Shown here: positions 1-28,746 of the stretch, one piece after another | Numbering within the stretch: position 1 is the first letter of the stretch | Layout of the letters: each line of letters starts with the position of its first letter | IMG/VR virus record: IMGVR_UViG_3300047452_000025 | Coordinates: 1 to 28,746 of that record | Source: a virus | Direction: 5' to 3' (one strand) | Length of the DNA stretch: 28,746 bases | Made by a program: the position numbers and the translations under genes | The notes under the pieces: model-generated | Databases searched by the model: none | Told to the model about the DNA's origin: nothing | The model's input: the letters and a program-made list of their open reading frames with translations, nothing else

Positions 1-174
1 AGTGGGTGCGTCTATATGTTGTGTATATTAGTGCATTTGTGTGAGAAATGAAAGACCCCCTGAACGTGACCGCGCTCAGAGGGCCAGTGAGGAGAGCCAG
101 TGTATGGAGCTACACGATACCAACAGGGAGGGAGAGAGGTTGGCTCTTGCTGAGAAGGTAACACAATTTTAAGC
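1..174. other. non-coding edge region, function unknown
   Basis: No convincing gene is visible here. The stretch has a purine-rich block around 125-140 and an 8-base near-repeat ending in CCAGTG at 82-89 and 95-102. It lies downstream of the leftward replication operon and its terminator, so it may be the space before another transcription unit outside the window. The only longish reading frame, on the minus strand, runs through the terminator and has no protein-like features. Confidence 0.4.
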
Positions 175-211
175 AAAAAAACACCCCCTGCGGAGCGATC
201 ACGCGAGGGGG
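175..211 (-). terminator. intrinsic terminator of leftward replication operon
   Basis: On the minus strand AGGGGG at 206-211 reads CCCCCT and pairs with AGGGGG from 184-189. A 16-base loop contains a short inner GCG/CGC pairing. The hairpin is followed by UGU and then a run of seven U from the A-tract at 175-181. It sits 19 bases past the stop of the P-like gene, where a leftward operon should end. Read on the plus strand there is no U-tract, so it should act on leftward transcripts only. Confidence 0.85.
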
Positions 212-229: not shown

Positions 230-733
230 CTATGAACTAGGTGGGTCAACCCTAGCAGGTATATTGTTTGCTGACAAGTATTCTAAGTACGGCTGCAAAT
301 GTGCGTCTGAGATAAGTCCCATCTCTACCATCTTATCTGCCAGCTTACCGCGTATATACATCTCACCTACTGGTTCACCTGCAATGATACGTTTGGCATT
401 TAGCTGTAAGGTGTCAGGCTTCCACGGGCCGCTGCTTACTGAGCGTGTGGATGCAGATGTCATAGACTTAGAAACTGCTGCGCTGATTTCTGCGGATGTG
501 GGCCAAGAGCGAGACTTGTGCGCTTCTTTTAGTTTCAGCATTGCGCGATCCATTGTGCCGCGAATGTGATCCTCATTTGTGTCGTTAGGAAACTTCTGGT
601 TAATCAAGCGACAGATACCCTCTACCTCTGTCTGCGCACGTTTCTCATCTTCTAAGTGCTTTGGAATAGCGTAAGTGCCAAGGATGTTCATTAGCTCATT
701 ACGGATTAGCTGCATTCTCATATCATAGTTCAT
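230..733 (-). CDS. putative replication accessory protein (lambda P position)
   Basis: A 167-residue soluble, mostly helical protein directly behind the O-like initiator, where lambdoid phages carry the helicase loader. No motif proves that role. A stretch near residues 75-85 (KSRSWPTSAEI) is of a kind I have seen in phage replication-region proteins, but there is no Walker A, so a DnaC-type ATPase is unlikely. I chose the ATG at 733 because GAGGT lies 8 bases upstream. In-frame ATG 748 and GTG 763 would overlap the O-like gene more. A strong terminator follows the stop. Function is inferred mainly from position. Confidence 0.7.
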   Translation of the reverse strand: MNYDMRMQLIRNELMNILGTYAIPKHLEDEKRAQTEVEGICRLINQKFPNDTNEDHIRGTMDRAMLKLKEAHKSRSWPTSAEISAAVSKSMTSASTRSVSSGPWKPDTLQLNAKRIIAGEPVGEMYIRGKLADKMVEMGLISDAHLQPYLEYLSANNIPARVDPPSS

Positions 734-737
734 AGCA

Positions 738-1388
738 TTATACCTCATCTGCCCAGCGCTCACCGTTTAGCCAAGTAGCTAGGTGAGGCATGTATTGTTT
801 GTCTTTACCGTCTAGTGTTGAAACGTATGCTTCCAGTTTAGGCAATAGATCAAAGAAGTCTATCTTCTTAGAAGCTGTTACATATGCTTTTCTAGCCTGC
901 CCTTTCCCTACCTTGCGTGGGTACATTTCCCATAATTGATCAAAGTAATAATTCACCTCATCATCCTTTGATGATGTATATAGTTTACTTCCAAGGTTCT
1001 TTCTTACAAGGTTTGGGTCAAAATTTTGTACCCTCCCCCCTACAGATTTTGTACCCTCCCCCTGTTGTTTTCTTGAGGGGGCTTTGTAGCACTTCATACC
1101 GCCAACTGTTCCGTCATCTTTAAACAAGAAATAATAATTGTTGGATGTCTGCCTGCCATCATCGCAGTAATACGGTGACCACTGAATAAGTTTAAGGCGC
1201 TCTAGTTCTTTTAGGTGGTTACGAACGCTTTGCTCACTCATCTCGCAACAATCTGCCAAACGCTTAATGCTTGGATAGCACTTTAAGGTTTCGCCGTTGT
1301 GATGATCTGCAAGCCAATACAACACAATCTTGGTTGCAGGCTTCAAACCCTGTTGCTTCATTGCTAATGCTGTCATATAGTGGGACAT
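738..1388 (-). CDS. phage replication initiator, O-like, winged-helix protein
   Basis: 216 residues in two parts. Residues 1-75 form a winged-helix domain of the HTH_36 type seen in phage replication proteins (PATKIVLYWLADHHN, then CYPSIKRLADCCEMSEQSVRNH). Residues 146-216 carry the pattern common to O-like proteins: W-x-x-YPRKVGKGQARKAY and, at the end, PHLATWLNGERW. The linker, residues 95-140, has little predicted structure, and its DNA holds two direct repeats and an inverted repeat that look like an origin. The start has AAAGGAG about 9 bases upstream. It should bind the origin and recruit the host helicase with the product of the next gene. The family call is solid; the exact partner is inferred. 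Confidence 0.85.
   Translation of the reverse strand: MSHYMTALAMKQQGLKPATKIVLYWLADHHNGETLKCYPSIKRLADCCEMSEQSVRNHLKELERLKLIQWSPYYCDDGRQTSNNYYFLFKDDGTVGGMKCYKAPSRKQQGEGTKSVGGRVQNFDPNLVRKNLGSKLYTSSKDDEVNYYFDQLWEMYPRKVGKGQARKAYVTASKKIDFFDLLPKLEAYVSTLDGKDKQYMPHLATWLNGERWADEV
959..976. repeat. perfect 7-bp inverted repeat near candidate origin
   Basis: CATCATC at 959-965 and GATGATG at 970-976 are separated by CTTT. It lies about 50 bp from the direct repeats, inside the O-like gene, with AT-rich sequence (TGTATATAG) next to it. Hairpins and AT-rich tracts beside iterons are usual parts of phage origins. It encodes part of the Ser/Asp-rich linker, so chance from codon use is possible. Confidence 0.4.
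1023..1062. repeat. two direct repeats, candidate replication-origin iterons
   Basis: ATTTTGTACCCTCCCCC occurs at 1023-1039 and again, identically, at 1046-1062, so the period is 23 bp. The period is not a multiple of three, and on the coding (minus) strand the two copies are read in different frames (GEGTKS versus GGRVQNF). Protein selection alone therefore does not explain the identity. They lie in the linker of the O-like initiator gene, the same place as lambda's iterons inside gene O. Only two clear copies are seen; lambda has four. Confidence 0.6.
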
Positions 1389-3335: not shown

Positions 3336-3762
3336 CGATGAGATGGTGCAGCGCGAGTTAGACTTGTGTGTGCGTCTAGGTAAGAAGTGGAAATGCACAG
3401 TAGAGATGCAGCACAAGTACAGCGTGTTTGATGCTGTAGCTCACAAAGACAACAAGCCGCAAGCGTTCGTAGAATTGCGCATCATTAACTACGCTTTTTA
3501 TGACCTGCCAGACATTATGATAAGTTTGACAAAATGCACTGCGGGTAAAAACCAAACTGAGATAACAGGATTGCCCAGCCTGTTTGTGGTACACTGGAAG
3601 AAAGACGATACCATTGGCTACATAGACATCAACAAGACTTACCACGGTGAACCTGACTATAGGGTGTCTAAGAAGGGCATGAACAGACTGAATGATGAGG
3701 CAGAAATAGAAGTATGCCGCCATGTCAGAACGTCACAATTCAAGGTGCTAACAGAGATATGA
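3316..3762 (+). CDS. putative restriction-endonuclease-fold protein, possibly inactive
   Basis: 148 residues. The layout resembles phage proteins with the PD-(D/E)xK nuclease fold: D39 in a strand (SVFDAVA), then FVELR at 51-55 in the place of the (D/E)xK strand, a helix with ISLTKCTAGK, and a strand LPSLFVVHWKKDD. The lysine of the motif is replaced by arginine (E53-L-R55), so it may be weak, inactive or a false resemblance. The gene overlaps both neighbours: 20 bases with the gene before and ATGA with the one after. Context with SSB, annealing protein, HNH protein and RusA supports DNA work. Confidence 0.65.
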   Translation: MTHWKPSDEMVQRELDLCVRLGKKWKCTVEMQHKYSVFDAVAHKDNKPQAFVELRIINYAFYDLPDIMISLTKCTAGKNQTEITGLPSLFVVHWKKDDTIGYIDINKTYHGEPDYRVSKKGMNRLNDEAEIEVCRHVRTSQFKVLTEI

Positions 3763-4439
3763 CAGAGTACACACAAGAAAAAGACTTTGATGTTGAGGTC
3801 AAAGTGCGCAACGGAAGATTGCTGAGAGCAATCCGTAAGCATTACAAAAGTACGGCAGCGTTTTGCAGGGAATATAACTTAGATGCCGTGCGCGTTAGTG
3901 CGCTAATGACAATGAAAGTTAAACCAATAAACAAACGAGGCTGGACGCAATTAGCCGCTGATGTTGCTATGCTGCTTGGCAAAGACCCAGAAGACCTTTG
4001 GCCCGACCATATGAAAGAAATCAAATTACGCAGATCAACTGCATCATTTGGCGCAGATTTTGATGAGGTCTTACAAATAGCTCAACAAGGATCGGTTGAA
4101 AAACTTATCGCACAAAAACAAACGCTAGACTTAATCACAGAGAAATTAACAGACCGCGAAAAATATTGCTTAAAAGCACATTACGAAATGGGGAAAACTT
4201 ATGTTGAAATAGCGGAAATACTGGGGAGAAGTGTTGAGAGAGTGCGGCAGATAATTTTTAAAGCACTCAGAAAGTCTCGCAACACAGCGCAGGCTCATGA
4301 TCTAATGAAACTGGCTACGGGAGATTTTCGCATAGTTTATAATGAGGAAACTGAAAGCTACGATTACATTGATACATCAAGACCCAAAAGTATCTCATAC
4401 GCAGCAAGAGAACTCTTTAAGGATGACGAATTAAGTTGA
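3759..4439 (+). CDS. HTH plus sigma-70 region 4 transcription regulator
   Basis: 226 residues with two DNA-binding parts. Residues 17-82 look like a Cro/CI-type domain (NGRLLRAIRKHYKSTAAFCREYN ending GKDPEDLWP). Residues 129-175 are a sigma-70 region 4 helix-turn-helix: LTDREKYCLKAHYEMGKTYVEIAEILG then SVERVRQIIFKALRKSRN. There is no region 2, so it cannot melt a promoter as a normal sigma factor. Proteins with this pairing occur in phages and prophages of alphaproteobacteria. It could activate late genes or redirect host polymerase. The start at 3759 overlaps the previous stop (ATGA). The tail from 190 on is unassigned. Confidence 0.8.
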   Translation: MTEYTQEKDFDVEVKVRNGRLLRAIRKHYKSTAAFCREYNLDAVRVSALMTMKVKPINKRGWTQLAADVAMLLGKDPEDLWPDHMKEIKLRRSTASFGADFDEVLQIAQQGSVEKLIAQKQTLDLITEKLTDREKYCLKAHYEMGKTYVEIAEILGRSVERVRQIIFKALRKSRNTAQAHDLMKLATGDFRIVYNEETESYDYIDTSRPKSISYAARELFKDDELS

Positions 4440-13293: not shown

Positions 13294-13528
13294 GGTGCTT
13301 TCCCTTCCGTTGTACTAGCGCCAAGGCATCTACATCTGCCTGTAGTTGACGCTCTATTGCTGTTAATGCCCTCAAAATGGCGTGAGCATCCTCACGTTTT
13401 TCCACCTCTTGGGCGCTGCTATCTGCGAAAGTCCTCATTTGGGTGTCCCGCAAATCCTTTATGGTTTCCATGAACCATTCATTCTCTAACAGTGATTTTG
13501 AGCGTTTAGCTCTTTGCTCAATATCCAC
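13280..13528 (-). CDS. small hypothetical protein between portal and scaffold
   Basis: 82 residues, mostly helical and charged (QRAKRSKSLLENEWFMETIKDLRDTQM, then REDAHAILRALTAIERQLQADVDAL). The only suitable start is GTG 13528, overlapping the portal stop by 11 bases with GGGA upstream, and it overlaps the scaffold start by 14 bases. A small gene of this sort sits here in many podoviruses; it may be a head assembly helper. Confidence 0.75.
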   Translation of the reverse strand: MDIEQRAKRSKSLLENEWFMETIKDLRDTQMRTFADSSAQEVEKREDAHAILRALTAIERQLQADVDALALVQRKGKHRGND

Positions 13529-15629
13529 CTTGCATTCCCATCATCTGCGCGTTGTGTTCGCGTACCGCGTCTTGCTCTGCTTTTACGCTGGCAACATCAA
13601 CCGCTGTTCCGTACTTGCCAAGTATCTCAGCAACCTTAACCGCCAAGTCTTGAACCATGTCATCACGCGCCAAATCGTCATCCATGCCCAGCTTGTGCAT
13701 CTTATACTGGTAATCCATCTGCGCCTTGGTCATGTCTACCTGCGCCCGTGTCTGCGCTTTCATAGCCTCTGTCTGCATAAATGCTGCATTTGGATCAGGC
13801 TGTTGCGCTTGCATCATCGCTTGCTGCTGCGCCATCTGCTGTTGCTGCATCATCATCTGCTGCTCAATCTCTGGGGTCATCGGCATGAAATAGCGATCCG
13901 CATTCCGCAACCCACCAAGAGCCAATAAATCCGCTAACGTGTTTCGCATCTGCGTTAAAGTGACCACGCCATTCATTGGGCCATACTGCGCATATATCTG
14001 CTGCTGTATCTGTAAGGCTTGCTGTAGGGCCGCTGCGCGTTCGTTTTCGCGTCCAGTGCCGATACCCACATTGACGATCAAATCCATGTCTGTATCCCAC
14101 GCTCTGGGGTCTACAGGCACAAATGAACCGTTGAGGCGCATGATTTCTTCATTGTCGGTATTCTTAACCATCAAATCCAACATCAAGCGGAACAACTGGC
14201 GCATACCACCTTCTGCAAAGTTACGCGCAATCACCTCTGCTTGGCCTGTCTGACCTTCCATGGATGCCGCAACCGCTGTTGCTGTAGAAGACGCTAAAAC
14301 ATCTGGATCAAGACCCTGCGCCATCTTGGAAACGCCCGTCTTGTTATCTACCAACTGATCAAAGTATTGCAGTGCTGGAAGTGTCTGACCCGCTGTAAAA
14401 GGTACTGCCATCTCCATGACGCTGTTAGGTGCTTTCACCCGCACAATGCGTCCAATCTCGTTATTGAGCAAATCGTCAATCGCAACCTGACCATCAACAA
14501 TCTGCAACGCAGGGTTATTGGTCAGTGCTACGTTATCCAGAACACCGCGCAGCATCGCCGTAGCTGCGTCCTGATCGTCCAATACCAAATCAACAAGTGA
14601 TGAACCAAAGAAAGCGTGTGGCTCTGGATCGCATTCAAAGATTGCATAAGGCGCACAATCAGCCTCGTAGAAGTTCAACAGCTTAAACGTAGAACCAGCA
14701 CACAAGAACTGGTACAGACGCGGCATACCCGTACCTTCAATGTCTAATTCCATGTAAGCATTTGTAACTGTGATTTTCTTAGACGCGCCAGAGATGTTTT
14801 CATCCTCGCCCTCATCTACCGCATAACCACGGCGTTCAAACTCAGCCTCATCATCAACAACGCTATACTCAGTGCTATCCAATCCTGCCAAGTCTTCAAT
14901 GCTAAAACCCATCGCAATCAAATCAGACACGCGCATTTCTGTGCTGTGACCGCACACATAGAAGTTATCAATTCCACGCGCGTTACGATCCACAAAGAAA
15001 TCTTCTGGGGGAACGCTCTCTATACAGATGTCACCATGAGAAATAGACCGTGAAATCTTCACATCATGCTCTGGTACTTCAATCTCCATACCCATCTGAT
15101 CCATTGAAATGCTCATGCGCATCTCATGTTCAAGAACCTCTACGTCATCGTCTTCAATGATAACCGCAAATTCGTCATCAGTCAGATTGGTGAAGGTATG
15201 GATTTCTGTTTCCATTTCCTCATTGTAATACGCATATGCAATGCCAGCTTTCTTAACCATCGCGTCTTGGAATACATCGTTTAGTACGCGGTATCCGTCA
15301 TGCTGCTGGAACTTATATGAAATGAAGCTAGTCGCCTGCTCTGCTGCTGCAACATCCTCTGGGCCACGCGGCACAAACTCTACTGGCTTTTCGCTTGTAA
15401 GGAATATGCGCTGAATGCTTGGCTTTAGACCCCGCACAACCTCACGGCACTTTGTTGCCACAACTCTGCTGCGACCTTCCTCGTACCCAATGTCTACCTC
15501 GCCATCAAAGTAACGCTGGGCCTTAATGCGTTGTGGTGCAATCTCGCTGTCTACAAAGTCCACCGCATCTTGAATTGCTTTGGAAACAATGCTTTCAATC
15601 TGTGTTTGATCTAGTGGTTCTAATCGCAT
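13518..15629 (-). CDS. portal protein
   Basis: 703 residues from ATG 15629, chosen over the in-frame ATG 15662 because AAGGA lies between them and the preceding gene ends at 15640. The N-terminal part (FVDSEIAPQRIKAQRYFDGE, then GRSRVVATKCREVVRGLKPSIQRIF) and the central SVPPEDFFVDRNARG followed by YVCGHSTEMRVSDLIAMG match P22/SU10-like portals. An acidic insertion lies near 150-200. A Met/Gln-rich helical end (residues about 595-703) would form the barrel inside the head. The ring of twelve is the DNA entrance and the tail joint. Confidence 0.92.
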   Translation of the reverse strand: MRLEPLDQTQIESIVSKAIQDAVDFVDSEIAPQRIKAQRYFDGEVDIGYEEGRSRVVATKCREVVRGLKPSIQRIFLTSEKPVEFVPRGPEDVAAAEQATSFISYKFQQHDGYRVLNDVFQDAMVKKAGIAYAYYNEEMETEIHTFTNLTDDEFAVIIEDDDVEVLEHEMRMSISMDQMGMEIEVPEHDVKISRSISHGDICIESVPPEDFFVDRNARGIDNFYVCGHSTEMRVSDLIAMGFSIEDLAGLDSTEYSVVDDEAEFERRGYAVDEGEDENISGASKKITVTNAYMELDIEGTGMPRLYQFLCAGSTFKLLNFYEADCAPYAIFECDPEPHAFFGSSLVDLVLDDQDAATAMLRGVLDNVALTNNPALQIVDGQVAIDDLLNNEIGRIVRVKAPNSVMEMAVPFTAGQTLPALQYFDQLVDNKTGVSKMAQGLDPDVLASSTATAVAASMEGQTGQAEVIARNFAEGGMRQLFRLMLDLMVKNTDNEEIMRLNGSFVPVDPRAWDTDMDLIVNVGIGTGRENERAAALQQALQIQQQIYAQYGPMNGVVTLTQMRNTLADLLALGGLRNADRYFMPMTPEIEQQMMMQQQQMAQQQAMMQAQQPDPNAAFMQTEAMKAQTRAQVDMTKAQMDYQYKMHKLGMDDDLARDDMVQDLAVKVAEILGKYGTAVDVASVKAEQDAVREHNAQMMGMQGGY

Positions 15630-15639
15630 TTTTGTTTCC

Positions 15640-17373
15640 TTATTGTGGCAACGTAGACGCACCTAGCATTCTTAGTAGCGTTTGAGGGGTTTTTAATTCA
15701 TCAATCAGTTGGTTTTTCAAGTATGCTTGACCAGCAGGCGATGATACCAATTGATTTCTTACTGGTGGGATAATAGAGCCTAACGCAGCAGCCGCAGCTG
15801 CGGTCTGTGGGTCACCTGTGTATCCAAAACCTGCCGCGCCAAATCTTGTTGCGTCTTGGCTGGCTGGCCCACCTGCCGCTTGTAGTCTTGGCCCTGTGCC
15901 AGATTGCGGTAAACGCTTCATCAACGCACCGCCAGCTTTTGCCAATTCACCTAAATCTGATTTACCAAAAAGATTTGATCTTTTGAAAACCTGCTGCGTT
16001 GCAGATGCCAACTTATTTGGCGTGACTAACCCTTCATATAGACCCTCACCACTTTTTAAAGTTTTCTCAATAGCTAAGAAATCACGGTAGCGCCCGTTTG
16101 TGCTGCGCCACGCTTCACGCGCCTCTTTTGTCAGATTGCTGTCTACCATCTGCTTAACAACTGGCAGTATTTCCCTTGCAAACTGTCCATCAACATCACC
16201 TCTGCGTGTCATCGCGTTTAAAGTATCATGGAACCGCTTTATTTGCGTTTTGGACAAACTCTGCCCCGATTTTGCTGATGCCTGAAATGCGTTATAAAGA
16301 TTTCTGAAAATTGGCGCAGCGTTGGAAGGATTTACCTGACCACCATAAGTGCCAAGAATATCTACAATTTCATCCATTTGTTTGCTACTTGGAACGATTT
16401 TACGCGCAGTAGTGTCAATGCTTCCAATTGTATTTTCAAAGGAAGTCTTCATTTCATTATAAACACGTTCTAACTCTTTAGGTGTTGCGCGGTTACCATT
16501 TACACCAATGCGCTTCAATGCAGCCCGACTAAATTGCTCAAACGCTGTCATCTGCAAATCACGACCTGCGCGGGTAGCTTCTTCCCACGCCTTGATTACA
16601 TCATCATCGTACATCGTCCCAGCACTTGGCACGACACCCTCTTTCTTCAGTGTATCAAGGTACTCTTTGGTTACGCCTTTTAATTCCCCACCTCTGGGAC
16701 TAACGATCTTTTTGGCAAGAACTGGCGTTAAAACGGCTGTTGCAATCTCCATTGGTAGCTGTAGTGCCGTTCCCTCTACACCTTCTATTTTACCTGCATA
16801 AAGAGATGCAAGTGCTGGAGCAATTGCTTGTGAAATTACCTTTTTACCAGCAAACGGCACAAATTCCATTACGCGCTGCGTTGCTTCGCCCGTTCCTGTT
16901 TTTGGTTCATAGCCCATGACTTCAGGAGCTAATTTTTCTGCCGCTGCTGTTGCGTTAGCATCTCCAACATAATCTTTGATGTAGTCACCGACTACTGGTA
17001 TGTTCCCCAGTTGGTCTAAGGCTGACTGCTTTATGCCCTCTTTGCTACCACCCAATAATAAACCCAGACCAGAACTCCCAGCCTCTAAAAGCATATTTGG
17101 GGCATCTACAGCACCAGTTACACCTTTTAAACCGCCAGATGCCGCCGACATTCCAATATCAGTCAATTTCTCAGATGATGTCAGTTCTTCTGATAGTGTC
17201 TGACCATTAAACAAATCAATGCCAAACTTTGCCTCTGCGAAATCTTCTACTCGCTCTATTCTTTTTAGGTTCGCACCTGTTTTTGGGATAAGATTGTAGT
17301 AATCTCGTACTTCGGTGAAACTTAATTCATCTAAGTTTGTGCCATCTGCGAGTATGTTGTTTTGTCCAGCCAT
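15640..17373 (-). CDS. putative DNA ejection (internal virion) protein
   Basis: 577 residues. The N-terminal region is helical and includes a glycine-rich, weakly hydrophobic stretch (GMSAASGGLKGVTGAV, then SSGLGLLLGG) that could insert in membranes. The middle (250-470) is helical (TAFEQFSRAALKRIGVNGN, IFRNLYNAFQASAKSGQSLS, AREAWRSTNGRYRDFL). The C-terminal part is rich in Gly/Ala/Pro. Such a large helical protein beside the transglycosylase and portal is typical of the proteins that leave the head ahead of DNA. Start has AGGA seven bases upstream. No enzymatic motif seen. Confidence 0.78.
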   Translation of the reverse strand: MAGQNNILADGTNLDELSFTEVRDYYNLIPKTGANLKRIERVEDFAEAKFGIDLFNGQTLSEELTSSEKLTDIGMSAASGGLKGVTGAVDAPNMLLEAGSSGLGLLLGGSKEGIKQSALDQLGNIPVVGDYIKDYVGDANATAAAEKLAPEVMGYEPKTGTGEATQRVMEFVPFAGKKVISQAIAPALASLYAGKIEGVEGTALQLPMEIATAVLTPVLAKKIVSPRGGELKGVTKEYLDTLKKEGVVPSAGTMYDDDVIKAWEEATRAGRDLQMTAFEQFSRAALKRIGVNGNRATPKELERVYNEMKTSFENTIGSIDTTARKIVPSSKQMDEIVDILGTYGGQVNPSNAAPIFRNLYNAFQASAKSGQSLSKTQIKRFHDTLNAMTRRGDVDGQFAREILPVVKQMVDSNLTKEAREAWRSTNGRYRDFLAIEKTLKSGEGLYEGLVTPNKLASATQQVFKRSNLFGKSDLGELAKAGGALMKRLPQSGTGPRLQAAGGPASQDATRFGAAGFGYTGDPQTAAAAAALGSIIPPVRNQLVSSPAGQAYLKNQLIDELKTPQTLLRMLGASTLPQ

Positions 17374-17381
17374 CGTATTTC

Positions 17382-18776
17382 CTACTCACCAAAAATGGGT
17401 TTGTTAGCAAAATGCTCCCGAACAGCCGATGAGAAGTCTATCTGACTTAACGTGCGCAAATTGTTCTCTGTCATGTACTGCCTTGCAAAGTCGGCAATCT
17501 CTTGTTGCCGCACCAAAATCGCTTCTGTTGCAAGTAGCATATTCCGAATTGTTCTAGCGTCCATATTTGGGTTTGCTTGCATAGCATCCAGATACTCAAC
17601 ATCACTGGCGCTAATTCCTACGCCAAGACTTCCCCCAAGACGATCCAAAACCTGTTGACGCATCAGAGCGACAAATTCTTCATTACTTGAAACTTCTGTG
17701 TCAATGCCAAACCGCTTCAACAAGGCTTTACCTGTCTGGATCAACTCTGATCCAGCGCCAGCAGTGAAATCTGGCTGTTGTGATAGCTCTATTTGACGAC
17801 GAACTGTGGCTAGTTGCTTTGATGCATTACTTTCATCTGCAAACACTGATTTGGTAAAATCAATGTCCCATTCTTGTAAGCCCTTATCTGTTGTAGACAT
17901 ATCAACTAAAGGCTGAGTTTTTGATAATGCTTCTGCTTCCTCTGGTGATTTCCCTTTTGACAACCAATATTCGTAATTTTTTATCATAGAAGTACGGGCA
18001 TCTTTAGGAGTTTCCAGCATCTTACCCATATACAAAGACATCGCTGTTTTTGCGTCATAAGCGCCACTTTGTAACCCTTGAAGAACCATTGCTGCCAGCT
18101 TGTCGCCTTGTGCTGCACGTTGCTTTAGTGTCTCAATAGTTTTGTTGCGAGACTGTGTTTGCAATCTCTGCGCCCCACGCGCTCTAATTTGCTCACCCAT
18201 ACGCGCTTGCGGTAGAATAAGTGCATCTAGTGCTTGTGCAAAGTTCTCTGGGCCAGTTAGGCCAGTTGTTTGATTAGGGGCCATGAAGTTTTGCAAAAGT
18301 CCTCGCAGCCCACCCTGCTGTTGCTGTTTTTGCGGGGGAAAAATAGGTGGAGTTTGTATATTGCCGACCATTGCATCATTCCTCATTGCGCTCAGAGGCT
18401 GTCCATCGGTACTGCCTAGAATAGCTTTTAAATAGTTCTGTGTTTCTTTGAAGGGTGGTACGCCGCCATACTTCTCAACGTTACCCATGCCTGCGTTGTA
18501 AGCCGCAAGCGCCAAGGGCATTTCCCCAAACTGGTTTAATAACTGGCTTAGATACTTTGCACCGCCAAAAATGTTCTCGCGTGGGTCTTCACGATTTACG
18601 CCTAGCTCTGCTGCCGTATCAGGCATTAGCTGCGCTGGGCCATAAGCGCCTTTTGGCGATATAGCGTCTACTTTATAGCCACTCTCTTGGTTTATAAGTC
18701 GCAGAAATACGTCAGCAGGCAGGTTGTACTGCGCTGCTGCTTCTCTTGCTATTTGCTCTAATTCTGCGCGTGTCAT
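17382..18776 (-). CDS. virion lytic transglycosylase
   Basis: 464 residues. The first 120 are an SLT lysozyme-like domain: LINQESGYKVDAISPKGA with catalytic Glu31, GAYGPAQLMP at 43-52, and ALAAYNAGMGNVEKYGG at 89-105. The other 340 residues are helical and resemble no enzyme; they probably hold the protein in the particle. It cuts glycan strands locally so the ejection machinery can cross the cell wall on entry, unlike the endolysin, which acts at exit. AAAGG lies upstream of the ATG. Confidence 0.9.
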   Translation of the reverse strand: MTRAELEQIAREAAAQYNLPADVFLRLINQESGYKVDAISPKGAYGPAQLMPDTAAELGVNREDPRENIFGGAKYLSQLLNQFGEMPLALAAYNAGMGNVEKYGGVPPFKETQNYLKAILGSTDGQPLSAMRNDAMVGNIQTPPIFPPQKQQQQGGLRGLLQNFMAPNQTTGLTGPENFAQALDALILPQARMGEQIRARGAQRLQTQSRNKTIETLKQRAAQGDKLAAMVLQGLQSGAYDAKTAMSLYMGKMLETPKDARTSMIKNYEYWLSKGKSPEEAEALSKTQPLVDMSTTDKGLQEWDIDFTKSVFADESNASKQLATVRRQIELSQQPDFTAGAGSELIQTGKALLKRFGIDTEVSSNEEFVALMRQQVLDRLGGSLGVGISASDVEYLDAMQANPNMDARTIRNMLLATEAILVRQQEIADFARQYMTENNLRTLSQIDFSSAVREHFANKPIFGE

Positions 18777-26470: not shown

Positions 26471-28746
26471 CTAAGTAAACTTTAATACTACGCCTTGACC
26501 GCTGCTGTTGTAATTTACCCCACGATACGGCGCAGAACTGAAAAACCCACCCGTAAACATCCTGATGCAAGAGCCAAAATATGCAGTTTGATTAGCAAGT
26601 CCAATAGCTTCGGGATAACCGCGCAAGTCATAAGTTCTGATTAGATTGCCGTTTAAATCATATTGATATACTACACCTAAATTGGCTCTGTTATAAGTAT
26701 ATCCATCAATATTGTATTGAGCGTCTGTATAAGGCGCACCGACAAATATATATTGATCGTCTACGGCTACAGCCCACCCAAAATAATCACTACTGGAGGA
26801 ATATCCGACATTCTCTGGATTTCTGATGTCAAACCTACTGGCACCCGTTTCTGCGTTCCAAACCCAAATTCTACCTTGGTTAGTGCCTACATAATCTGAA
26901 TAGCGATGTCCCACAACTAAATTGTCATTAGTGCAAGCTATACTAAAACCAAACTCATCACTGCTTTCAGAATTTTGACCTGCTACCCACTGCTCTGTTC
27001 CTGTTGCTAAGTCGTAGCAAGTCACACCACCATAATTGGCTGAGTAATATTCATCGCCATTCTTTGAAGCGATATAATAATATGTGTCATTTGCACAAAC
27101 ACTCCAACCAAAATATGCGTTTGAGTTTGTTGAATGTGTGTGTGTTCTAATCAGTTGTCCCGTTTGCAGACTAAATACATAAGCCGCACCTGTGGTAAAG
27201 TTGGTACTATCTTCCCAAGGCGCACCCACGATTAAATAATCTCCTGAGATTGCCATAGTATCTTTAGAAGTATCCCAGCCAGACCCACCAAACTGATCAG
27301 AAGAACCATTGTTATAATTATTTGGATTGTATATTTGATGGAGCAATTGATACGTTGATGCATCATAAACATACACGACACCACTATCGTTCATGCCGCC
27401 AACATCTTCACGATGCGCACTTACGGCAATGTAATCATCACTGATTGCTACCGATGCCCCGAAATAATCTGAATTTGTTGTGCCATAAATGTTTGGGTTA
27501 GTTAAACTAGCCAACAAATTCCCTGTTTCTATGCTGTAAACATATGCACCACCACTGTTTGATTGAGCTGATGTACCAGAATAATCATCCTCTAAAGGTG
27601 CGCCTACAACTAATTTCGTAGAACTGGTGTCCATTGCTTGACCAAAATATTCATCATAACGCCTAGAAAAATCCAAATCGTTTGCGGGCGGGCGCCAATC
27701 ATAGTCTCTGGCCATAGAATAGGCACTTCCATTAGCGTCGTCGTAGATGTAAATAACCCCTGAGTTTGTACCTGATAGCCCGCCATCACTGTTTACAAAA
27801 TCTTCATTTCGCGCTGAGATATGCACTTGAGTGCAATATGAATTTCCATCTGAATTATTGCACCTTACCATAAAACCAAAATTATCAGAGGAACTTTGAG
27901 TGTTCACATTAGGATTATATAGAGTACCCTGATTGCTTCCTGAACTTGCGTCATAAGTAGTTATTCTATCGGTACTATAAGAGCCGACATATAAATGGTC
28001 ATAATCAACATCAAAGCTATAACCAAAACTGCCACCAACACCATTAATACTAAAGGCCTGATTTCCATTATGGTAAAAGGCATACACCCGACCGCTGTTG
28101 TAGAAATCGTTAGGCGCACTAAAATAAAAATAACGGCTATTTCCACGAACATGATACCCTGCAAGGGTACTATAACTACTGTTATAAATGTAATAAAGTT
28201 GCGAGTTTGTAAGTTGTTGACCAGTCACATGATTAAACATGTACATTCTACCATATTCATCAACTGTTGATGAAATATCTTCATAAGGCGCACCTACTGC
28301 AATAATATCGCCATACATCGCAATGCTATAACCGAAATAGTCATTATTTTCTATTGTGTTGCTGTCAACTTGCTTTTGAAAAGTTAATCCGTATTGATTA
28401 GAACTTGTTGTGTGAAAAACATACACTGCACCGATACTATAATAACTTCCAGTGTCTTCGTATATCGCACTAACGCCGATATGTGTATTCGTTAAAGAAA
28501 GCGCATAGCCAAACTGATCGCTGGTTCCTGTGTTATAATAATTAGGGTTTGTATAAGTGTGTAACAACTGCCAATCTTCGGGATTTGGCCCCGTAGAATA
28601 CAGATATACACGCCCACTATTAGCCCCTAAAGTGTCATCATAAGCAAAAGCGCCTATGGCTATTTTTGTTTGATCTGGACTAATCGCAACTGAATAGCCA
28701 AAATTACCAGTATCAAACGGACTGGCTGCGCTTTCTGGTGGGTGAA
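26471..28746 (-). CDS. giant FG-GAP repeat tail adhesin (5' end outside the window)
   Basis: At least 757 residues; the frame is still open at the window edge, so the true start lies beyond. The whole visible part is repeats of 50-60 residues with F-G at the start (SSDQFGYALSL, SNAYFGWSVCA, SSDYFGWAVAV), a strand ending VGAPYED or similar, and G-x-V/A-Y-V-Y/F. About 12 such units can be counted, one of them poorly kept. FG-GAP repeats make seven-blade propellers, so at least one and probably two propellers are present. It is probably the host-binding fibre or spike. No trimer or chaperone domain is visible at its C-terminus (VVLKFT). Confidence 0.85.
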   Translation of the reverse strand, partial: HPPESAASPFDTGNFGYSVAISPDQTKIAIGAFAYDDTLGANSGRVYLYSTGPNPEDWQLLHTYTNPNYYNTGTSDQFGYALSLTNTHIGVSAIYEDTGSYYSIGAVYVFHTTSSNQYGLTFQKQVDSNTIENNDYFGYSIAMYGDIIAVGAPYEDISSTVDEYGRMYMFNHVTGQQLTNSQLYYIYNSSYSTLAGYHVRGNSRYFYFSAPNDFYNSGRVYAFYHNGNQAFSINGVGGSFGYSFDVDYDHLYVGSYSTDRITTYDASSGSNQGTLYNPNVNTQSSSDNFGFMVRCNNSDGNSYCTQVHISARNEDFVNSDGGLSGTNSGVIYIYDDANGSAYSMARDYDWRPPANDLDFSRRYDEYFGQAMDTSSTKLVVGAPLEDDYSGTSAQSNSGGAYVYSIETGNLLASLTNPNIYGTTNSDYFGASVAISDDYIAVSAHREDVGGMNDSGVVYVYDASTYQLLHQIYNPNNYNNGSSDQFGGSGWDTSKDTMAISGDYLIVGAPWEDSTNFTTGAAYVFSLQTGQLIRTHTHSTNSNAYFGWSVCANDTYYYIASKNGDEYYSANYGGVTCYDLATGTEQWVAGQNSESSDEFGFSIACTNDNLVVGHRYSDYVGTNQGRIWVWNAETGASRFDIRNPENVGYSSSSDYFGWAVAVDDQYIFVGAPYTDAQYNIDGYTYNRANLGVVYQYDLNGNLIRTYDLRGYPEAIGLANQTAYFGSCIRMFTGGFFSSAPYRGVNYNSSGQGVVLKFT

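Follow-up and report, generated by a model that had tools for sequence, protein, structure and literature searches.

A probable lambda-like replication origin within the initiator gene of a marine phage and its relatives

Origins within initiator genes

Replication origins that lie within the gene for their own initiator are already known from the phages lambda and SPP1. In lambda the O protein binds each iteron as a dimer and has a flexible linker that joins its DNA-binding domain, at the N-terminus, to the C-terminal domain that binds P (PMC6022878), and the minimal fragment that permits unwinding of ori-lambda comprises two iterons together with the AT-rich region (PMC7466680). Determinants of replication specificity in O were the subject of studies of lambda-phi80 and lambda-82 hybrids in 1978, which are cited in PMC6022878. 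In SPP1, oriL is found within gene 38, where direct repeats are associated with an AT-rich region and the loader gene, gene 39, comes next (PMC6316719).

How does a phage known from metagenomic sequence compare with these systems? The window considered here, which is the whole stretch of DNA analysed, is 28,746 nt in length and represents positions 1 to 28,746 of the IMG/VR record IMGVR_UViG_3300047452_000025. Like lambda O and ori-lambda (PMC7466680; PMC6022878), its initiator gene combines an N-terminal DNA-binding domain, an iteron-encoding linker and a C-terminal domain, presumably for a partner; the iterons are imperfect dyads with the same 5-5-5 layout as the lambda iterons (CCCTC-AAAAC-GAGGG), and the AT-rich stretch is likewise promoter-distal to them. 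However, the iteron sequence is unrelated to that of lambda, which has four iterons in gene O where the window phage has two good copies and a decayed one, and the lambda spacing of 20/24/23 contrasts with the strict 22/23 of the marine family. A pair of AACCTTGKAA elements found in the marine family is not seen in lambda, and a lambda P homologue is not detectable next to the initiator of the window phage. The arrangement in SPP1, with repeats and an AT-rich region inside the initiator gene and the loader gene adjacent (PMC6316719), is alike, but SPP1 belongs to another phage group and also possesses oriR, a further origin that lies beyond the gene; the likeness noted here is one of layout. 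The closest protein family, PHROG 270, matches the initiator along its full length, although its entry is silent on in-gene iterons and on the AACCTTGKAA element. Judged by features that can be read from sequence, the mechanism is lambda O-like, with a putative loader, putative dimer binding and putative origin activity. What is new is the marine family itself, the natural swapping of specificity cassettes, what appears to be a readable helix-to-site code, and a second element. A literature search found nothing on the initiator family or the AACCTTGKAA element among open-licence papers, which is weak evidence of absence.

The initiator gene and its iterons

The N-terminal DNA-binding domain of the initiator is recognised as HTH_36 in a domain search, phrog_270 (replication initiation protein) covers residues 1-215, and the O-like PHROGs 391 and 345 are also matched; together with a winged-helix model these reveal the N-terminal helix-turn-helix that is a feature of lambda O-type initiators (Table 1). 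The AlphaFold2 model, for which an alignment of 17 relatives served as input, is of moderate confidence (mean pLDDT 74) and places the recognition helix at residues 52-64. A fold search with this model returned generic winged-helix proteins, MarR-like repressors and DnaD, with nothing at E <= 0.001, and MarR-type wHTH models match the DNA-binding domain weakly. The 167-aa product of the gene downstream, a putative helicase loader that was considered as a lambda P equivalent, has a confident all-helical predicted model and gave neither a PHROG match nor a PDB fold match at E <= 0.001. The initiator gene is divergent from an early operon containing SSB, and an early-region protein at 3714-4439 carries a sigma-70 region 4 domain. 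The first-pass annotation took the phage to be a podovirus, with which matches to a portal/head-tail adaptor and an internal-virion-like lytic protein (13521-15662 and 17385-18776) fit. YFG-type motifs recur in a large repetitive protein at 26471-28744, open at the window edge, which may accordingly be a structural protein of the beta-propeller-like kind.

Table 1. Position and nature of the features at the initiator locus (window coordinates unless residues are given).
Feature	Position	Strand	Description
Downstream gene	230-733	-	167 aa; conserved beside initiator, overlapping; helicase-loader candidate by position only
Initiator gene	738-1388	-	216 aa; HTH_36 E 1.7e-13; phrog_270 E 1.3e-39; AlphaFold2 model
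Protein layout	residues ~17-87, 95-140, 141-208		Winged HTH, disordered linker and helical C-terminal domain, respectively; AlphaFold2 model
Hairpin	959-976		Perfect 7-bp arms, CATCATC-CTTT-GATGATG; not counted as origin part
AT-rich stretch	976-1016		65.9% AT against 55.3% overall
Post-iteron element	989-1013	-	AACCTTGTAA-GAAAG-AACCTTGGAA; 3 bp past iteron 3; candidate strand-opening element
Iteron 3	1017-1031	-	Dyad GTACA-AAATT-TTGAC; adjoins AT-rich side
17-bp direct repeat copy	1023-1039	-	Exact match search
Iteron 2	1040-1054	-	Dyad GTACA-AAATC-TGTAG
17-bp direct repeat copy	1046-1062	-	Exact match search
First-iteron position	1063-1077	-	CTCAA-GAAAA-CAACA; degenerate here; assigned by register alone, weak
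Recognition-helix segment	1209-1244	-	Codons 49-60; covaries with DNA half-sites (Mantel, mutual information, model)

The locus was originally picked out through two identical 17-bp repeats, which are exact copies of ATTTTGTACCCTCCCCC (plus-strand letters) with a period of 23 bp, and which map to the disordered linker of the initiator. Since the copies translate as GEGTKS and GGRVQN they are read in different frames, and, as had been proposed, identity of the protein does not account for them, nor do codon shuffles reproduce them. Exact 14-mers that recur within 100 bp occur only at this locus in the 28.7-kb window; after order-1 Markov shuffling the figures per window are 0.02 for repeats of 14-mers and 0 for those of 17-mers. 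Among 2.9 million viral contigs the 17-mer is present in five stretches, each with two copies 23 bp apart, and all five are initiator genes having the same recognition-helix type. The repeats are therefore real, but what functions as the unit is a dyad of 15 bp and not the 17-bp direct repeat, whose copies overlap two dyads. The dyads have a 5-5-5 layout with an A-rich centre, each being an imperfect inverted repeat in the window and in the relatives, and they are found in tandem some 310-370 bp into the gene, in the coding region that separates one domain from the other. At the degenerate first-iteron position the relative L002 reads CTCTA-GAAAT-TTTAG. Elsewhere in the window iteron matches number only two, each with two mismatches, which equals the chance expectation. 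The automatic three-site search missed the window register (a wrong triple was returned for L001), and so the window sites were taken from the two-site result and entered by hand for the Mantel and mutual-information tests.

Conservation of the iterons acts on the DNA, independently of codons. Between the window type and L002 all 18 iteron codons are identical, against 48% elsewhere, and where both encode the same amino acid the codons are identical in 18/18 cases inside the iterons and 87/150 outside (Fisher p 1.5e-4, an optimistic value because the 18-codon run was picked as the longest). The same arrangement extends across the family, which was assembled from 80 relatives in viral contigs, with more added by further scans and two only from a scan of a genome collection. 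In a codon-shuffle test that scores repetition and dyad symmetry together, tandem 15-bp dyads exceeded the shuffles at p < 0.05 in 47/50 non-redundant cassettes, and in 45 of these 47 the dyad copies lie in different frames. Lambda O acted as a positive control in the same in-gene repeat test, and significant in-gene tandem repeats were also found for 10/20 HTH proteins of alphaproteobacterial genomes that are more distantly related, a set that includes likely non-initiators, which came out negative. The family usually has three iterons, with a three-site spacing of 22/23 bp in 77/95 genes and 23/23 bp in 14/95. As the dyad layout was first spotted by eye on the same family, a cleaner check is provided by 73 later genes, where the spacing is 22/23 in 61 and 23/23 in 11; these genes were retrieved via the AACCTTGKAA element, whose presence is then by construction, with site spacing and the gap to the element being independent of the retrieval. 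The half-site sequence varies from phage to phage, typical dyads being GCGCA-AAATC-TGCGC, GTCGC-AAAAT-GCGAC, TGGCA-GAATC-TGCCA, AGGAA-AAATA-TTCCT and GTCAA-AAATT-TTGAC. In L014 (3901-4549) the initiator frame is broken near its end by an apparent frameshift, either real or a sequencing error.

Recognition helix and cassette exchange

The similarity of residues 49-60 between cassettes covaries with the similarity of their half-sites (Mantel r = 0.762, p <= 0.0005, n = 41), and r is still 0.729 after partialling on other protein regions, whereas the N-cap and the C-terminal 70 residues give -0.081 and -0.012 over the same 41 cassettes. The set was restricted to cassettes with <85% identity across residues 34-86, and the control for kinship in these statistics is limited to the dropping of near-identical cassettes and the partialling. 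When each of 19 unseen helices was assigned the half-site belonging to its closest known counterpart, the error was 0.118, whereas shuffles averaged 0.515 and the best of 1000 reached 0.252; the effective number is below 19 because several helices share a type. Examples of helix types over residues 49-60 are EMSEQSVRNHLK and EMSRRSVEGHLE, and of dyad types GTACA and GCGCA. Mutual information with the half-site, calculated with phylogeny ignored, is present at residues 51, 52, 53, 54, 56 and 57 and absent at 49, 50, 58 and 59, which is the pattern that a single exposed face of the recognition helix should produce. That the half-sites follow the recognition helix, and not the N-terminal cap or the C-terminal domain, thus appears well supported, and the covariation also lends indirect support to binding of the iterons by dimers. 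With the helix and its own sites held within each gene, the sites of each protein should be predictable from sequence.

DNA identity profiles of the relatives reveal mosaic genes. For instance, the window type compared with L006 gives, per 15 codons, identities of 97, 93, 66, 37, 31, 42, 17, 28, 77, 97, 91, 100, 100, 97 and 100%, and L002 and L005 have a cassette in common at 97-100% with C-terminal domains of 46-57%. The C-terminal module of the window is found behind different N-terminal modules in L039, L040, L067 and L068, with 95-100% DNA identity to that of the window in the case of L040. The other-type N-terminal modules of these four bring their own in-gene repeats, such as TGCCC-AAAAA-GGCAA in L068. 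The transfer of recognition helix and sites together, as a cassette between nearly identical flanks, is well supported by such comparisons; as both lie within ~250 bp of one gene, recombination at the conserved flanks would exchange specificity and sites jointly. The 1978 hybrids of lambda with phi80 and 82 reportedly placed specificity already in the N-terminal part of O. It had been suggested at the outset that relatives keeping the protein but not the repeats would speak against an origin, and, taken literally, this is what is found, since many retain the ends of the protein with different repeats. Yet in these relatives the different repeats come with a matching, different recognition helix, which turns the outcome into support for an origin.

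The remaining parts of the proposed origin fared less evenly. Read along the coding strand, the iterons come first, then the AT-rich stretch and then the hairpin. The AT-rich stretch is present beside the repeats as described, but the enrichment is mild, with 11% of 41-bp windows being its equal. The hairpin arms are exact, but a role in the origin was rejected: the window contains around twelve hairpins whose arms reach 7 bp or more, making this one not unusual; the same DNA tracks the C-terminal module in L039, L040, L067 and L068 despite their different N-terminal modules and repeats; and L002-L004 retain the iterons but differ in sequence at the hairpin position. The GC skew of the window itself, which is a fragment, tracks gene orientation and is uninformative. 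In 11/12 related contigs the iterons fall within the lowest 10% of cumulative skew, again confounded by gene orientation, with G301 in disagreement, and the skew minimum is <=18 bp from the chosen midpoint in 2/12. Divergent transcription gives a minimum there too, and the contigs may be incomplete; within these limits the skew is consistent with an origin.

The post-iteron element and the origin reading

Beyond the iterons lies a second element, the family form of which is AACCTTGKAA-N5-AACCTTGGAA. It is separated from iteron 3 by 3 or 6 bp in 70/73 genes, and its codons are close to fixed over 40 cassettes (AAC 40/40, CTT 34/37, AAC 40/40, CTT 32/33, GGA 34/34), in contrast to the mixed codons of the conserved N-cap residues. 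Among the readable matches listed from a pattern scan of viral contigs, 83/88 are in the initiator family, 3/88 in one pentapeptide-repeat gene and 2/88 elsewhere. In the more distant L331, L337, L341 and L346, AACC-containing stretches are seen by eye right after the in-gene repeats, hinting at a wider, degenerate form. The AACCTTGKAA pair may mark the region of strand opening. A competing explanation with a substantial, if somewhat smaller, share of the probability is that the pair lies outside the origin and is a conserved recombination joint or a site for a host protein, for it sits where crossovers part the cassette from the C-terminal domain (L002 against L005); but the fixed distance to iteron 3 and the near-complete codon fixation point to an origin function that depends on its position, with which the stretches in several distant genes agree.

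For the locus as a whole, a lambda-like phage replication origin within the linker of the initiator gene is very probably the correct reading, and the original proposal to this effect is borne out by codon-independent conservation of the repeats, tandem dyads in nearly all of the cassettes, helix-site covariation and lambda-like geometry, and also by the low cumulative skew of the related contigs, subject to its confounding by gene orientation. The initiator, probably as dimers, would bind the two good 15-bp iterons through its recognition helix, the third, first-position iteron having presumably decayed in the window phage; once bound, the array would open the adjoining AT-rich DNA in which the AACCTTGKAA repeats lie, and the helicase machinery would be brought in by the C-terminal domain. 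A linker modelled as disordered would leave its amino acids free to drift to fit the DNA sites. It is improbable that the sites are instead an operator, from which the protein represses its own gene from within, with replication starting elsewhere: the weak MarR-type match and the resemblance of the model to MarR-like repressors and DnaD point that way, and an operator would yield the same covariation, but the best family match is to replication initiation, the sites lie ~310-370 bp into the gene, their 22/23 period is fixed, an arrangement like that of the lambda ori, and they are followed by the fixed AACCTTGKAA element, and the skew is low at the iterons in all but one of the 12 contigs, with the orientation caveat. 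An origin of the repeats in chance or in constraint on the protein, such as a repeated linker peptide, can be regarded as refuted. Although the linker does encode protein, and runs of C or G make similarity more likely, the copies are in different frames and beyond codon shuffles, the model gives a disordered linker, and the sites vary in sequence with the recognition helix.

Beyond the origin itself, the evidence leans towards these proteins being self-labelling initiators, in which a winged-helix code, mainly at residues 51, 52, 53, 56 and 57, is readable from metagenomes and predicts unseen specificities, and towards the post-iteron element being an undescribed origin-opening element common to all specificity types. 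If this is so, more than 160 genes that each carry a DNA-binding helix plus its own target sites would represent a natural experiment in protein-DNA recognition, and, as helix and sites swap between near-identical backgrounds, the recognition code would be both learnable and testable. The element would become a candidate for strand-opening assays, and the origins of many uncultured marine phages would be predictable from sequence alone. A single recombination event could then change the replication specificity of a phage.
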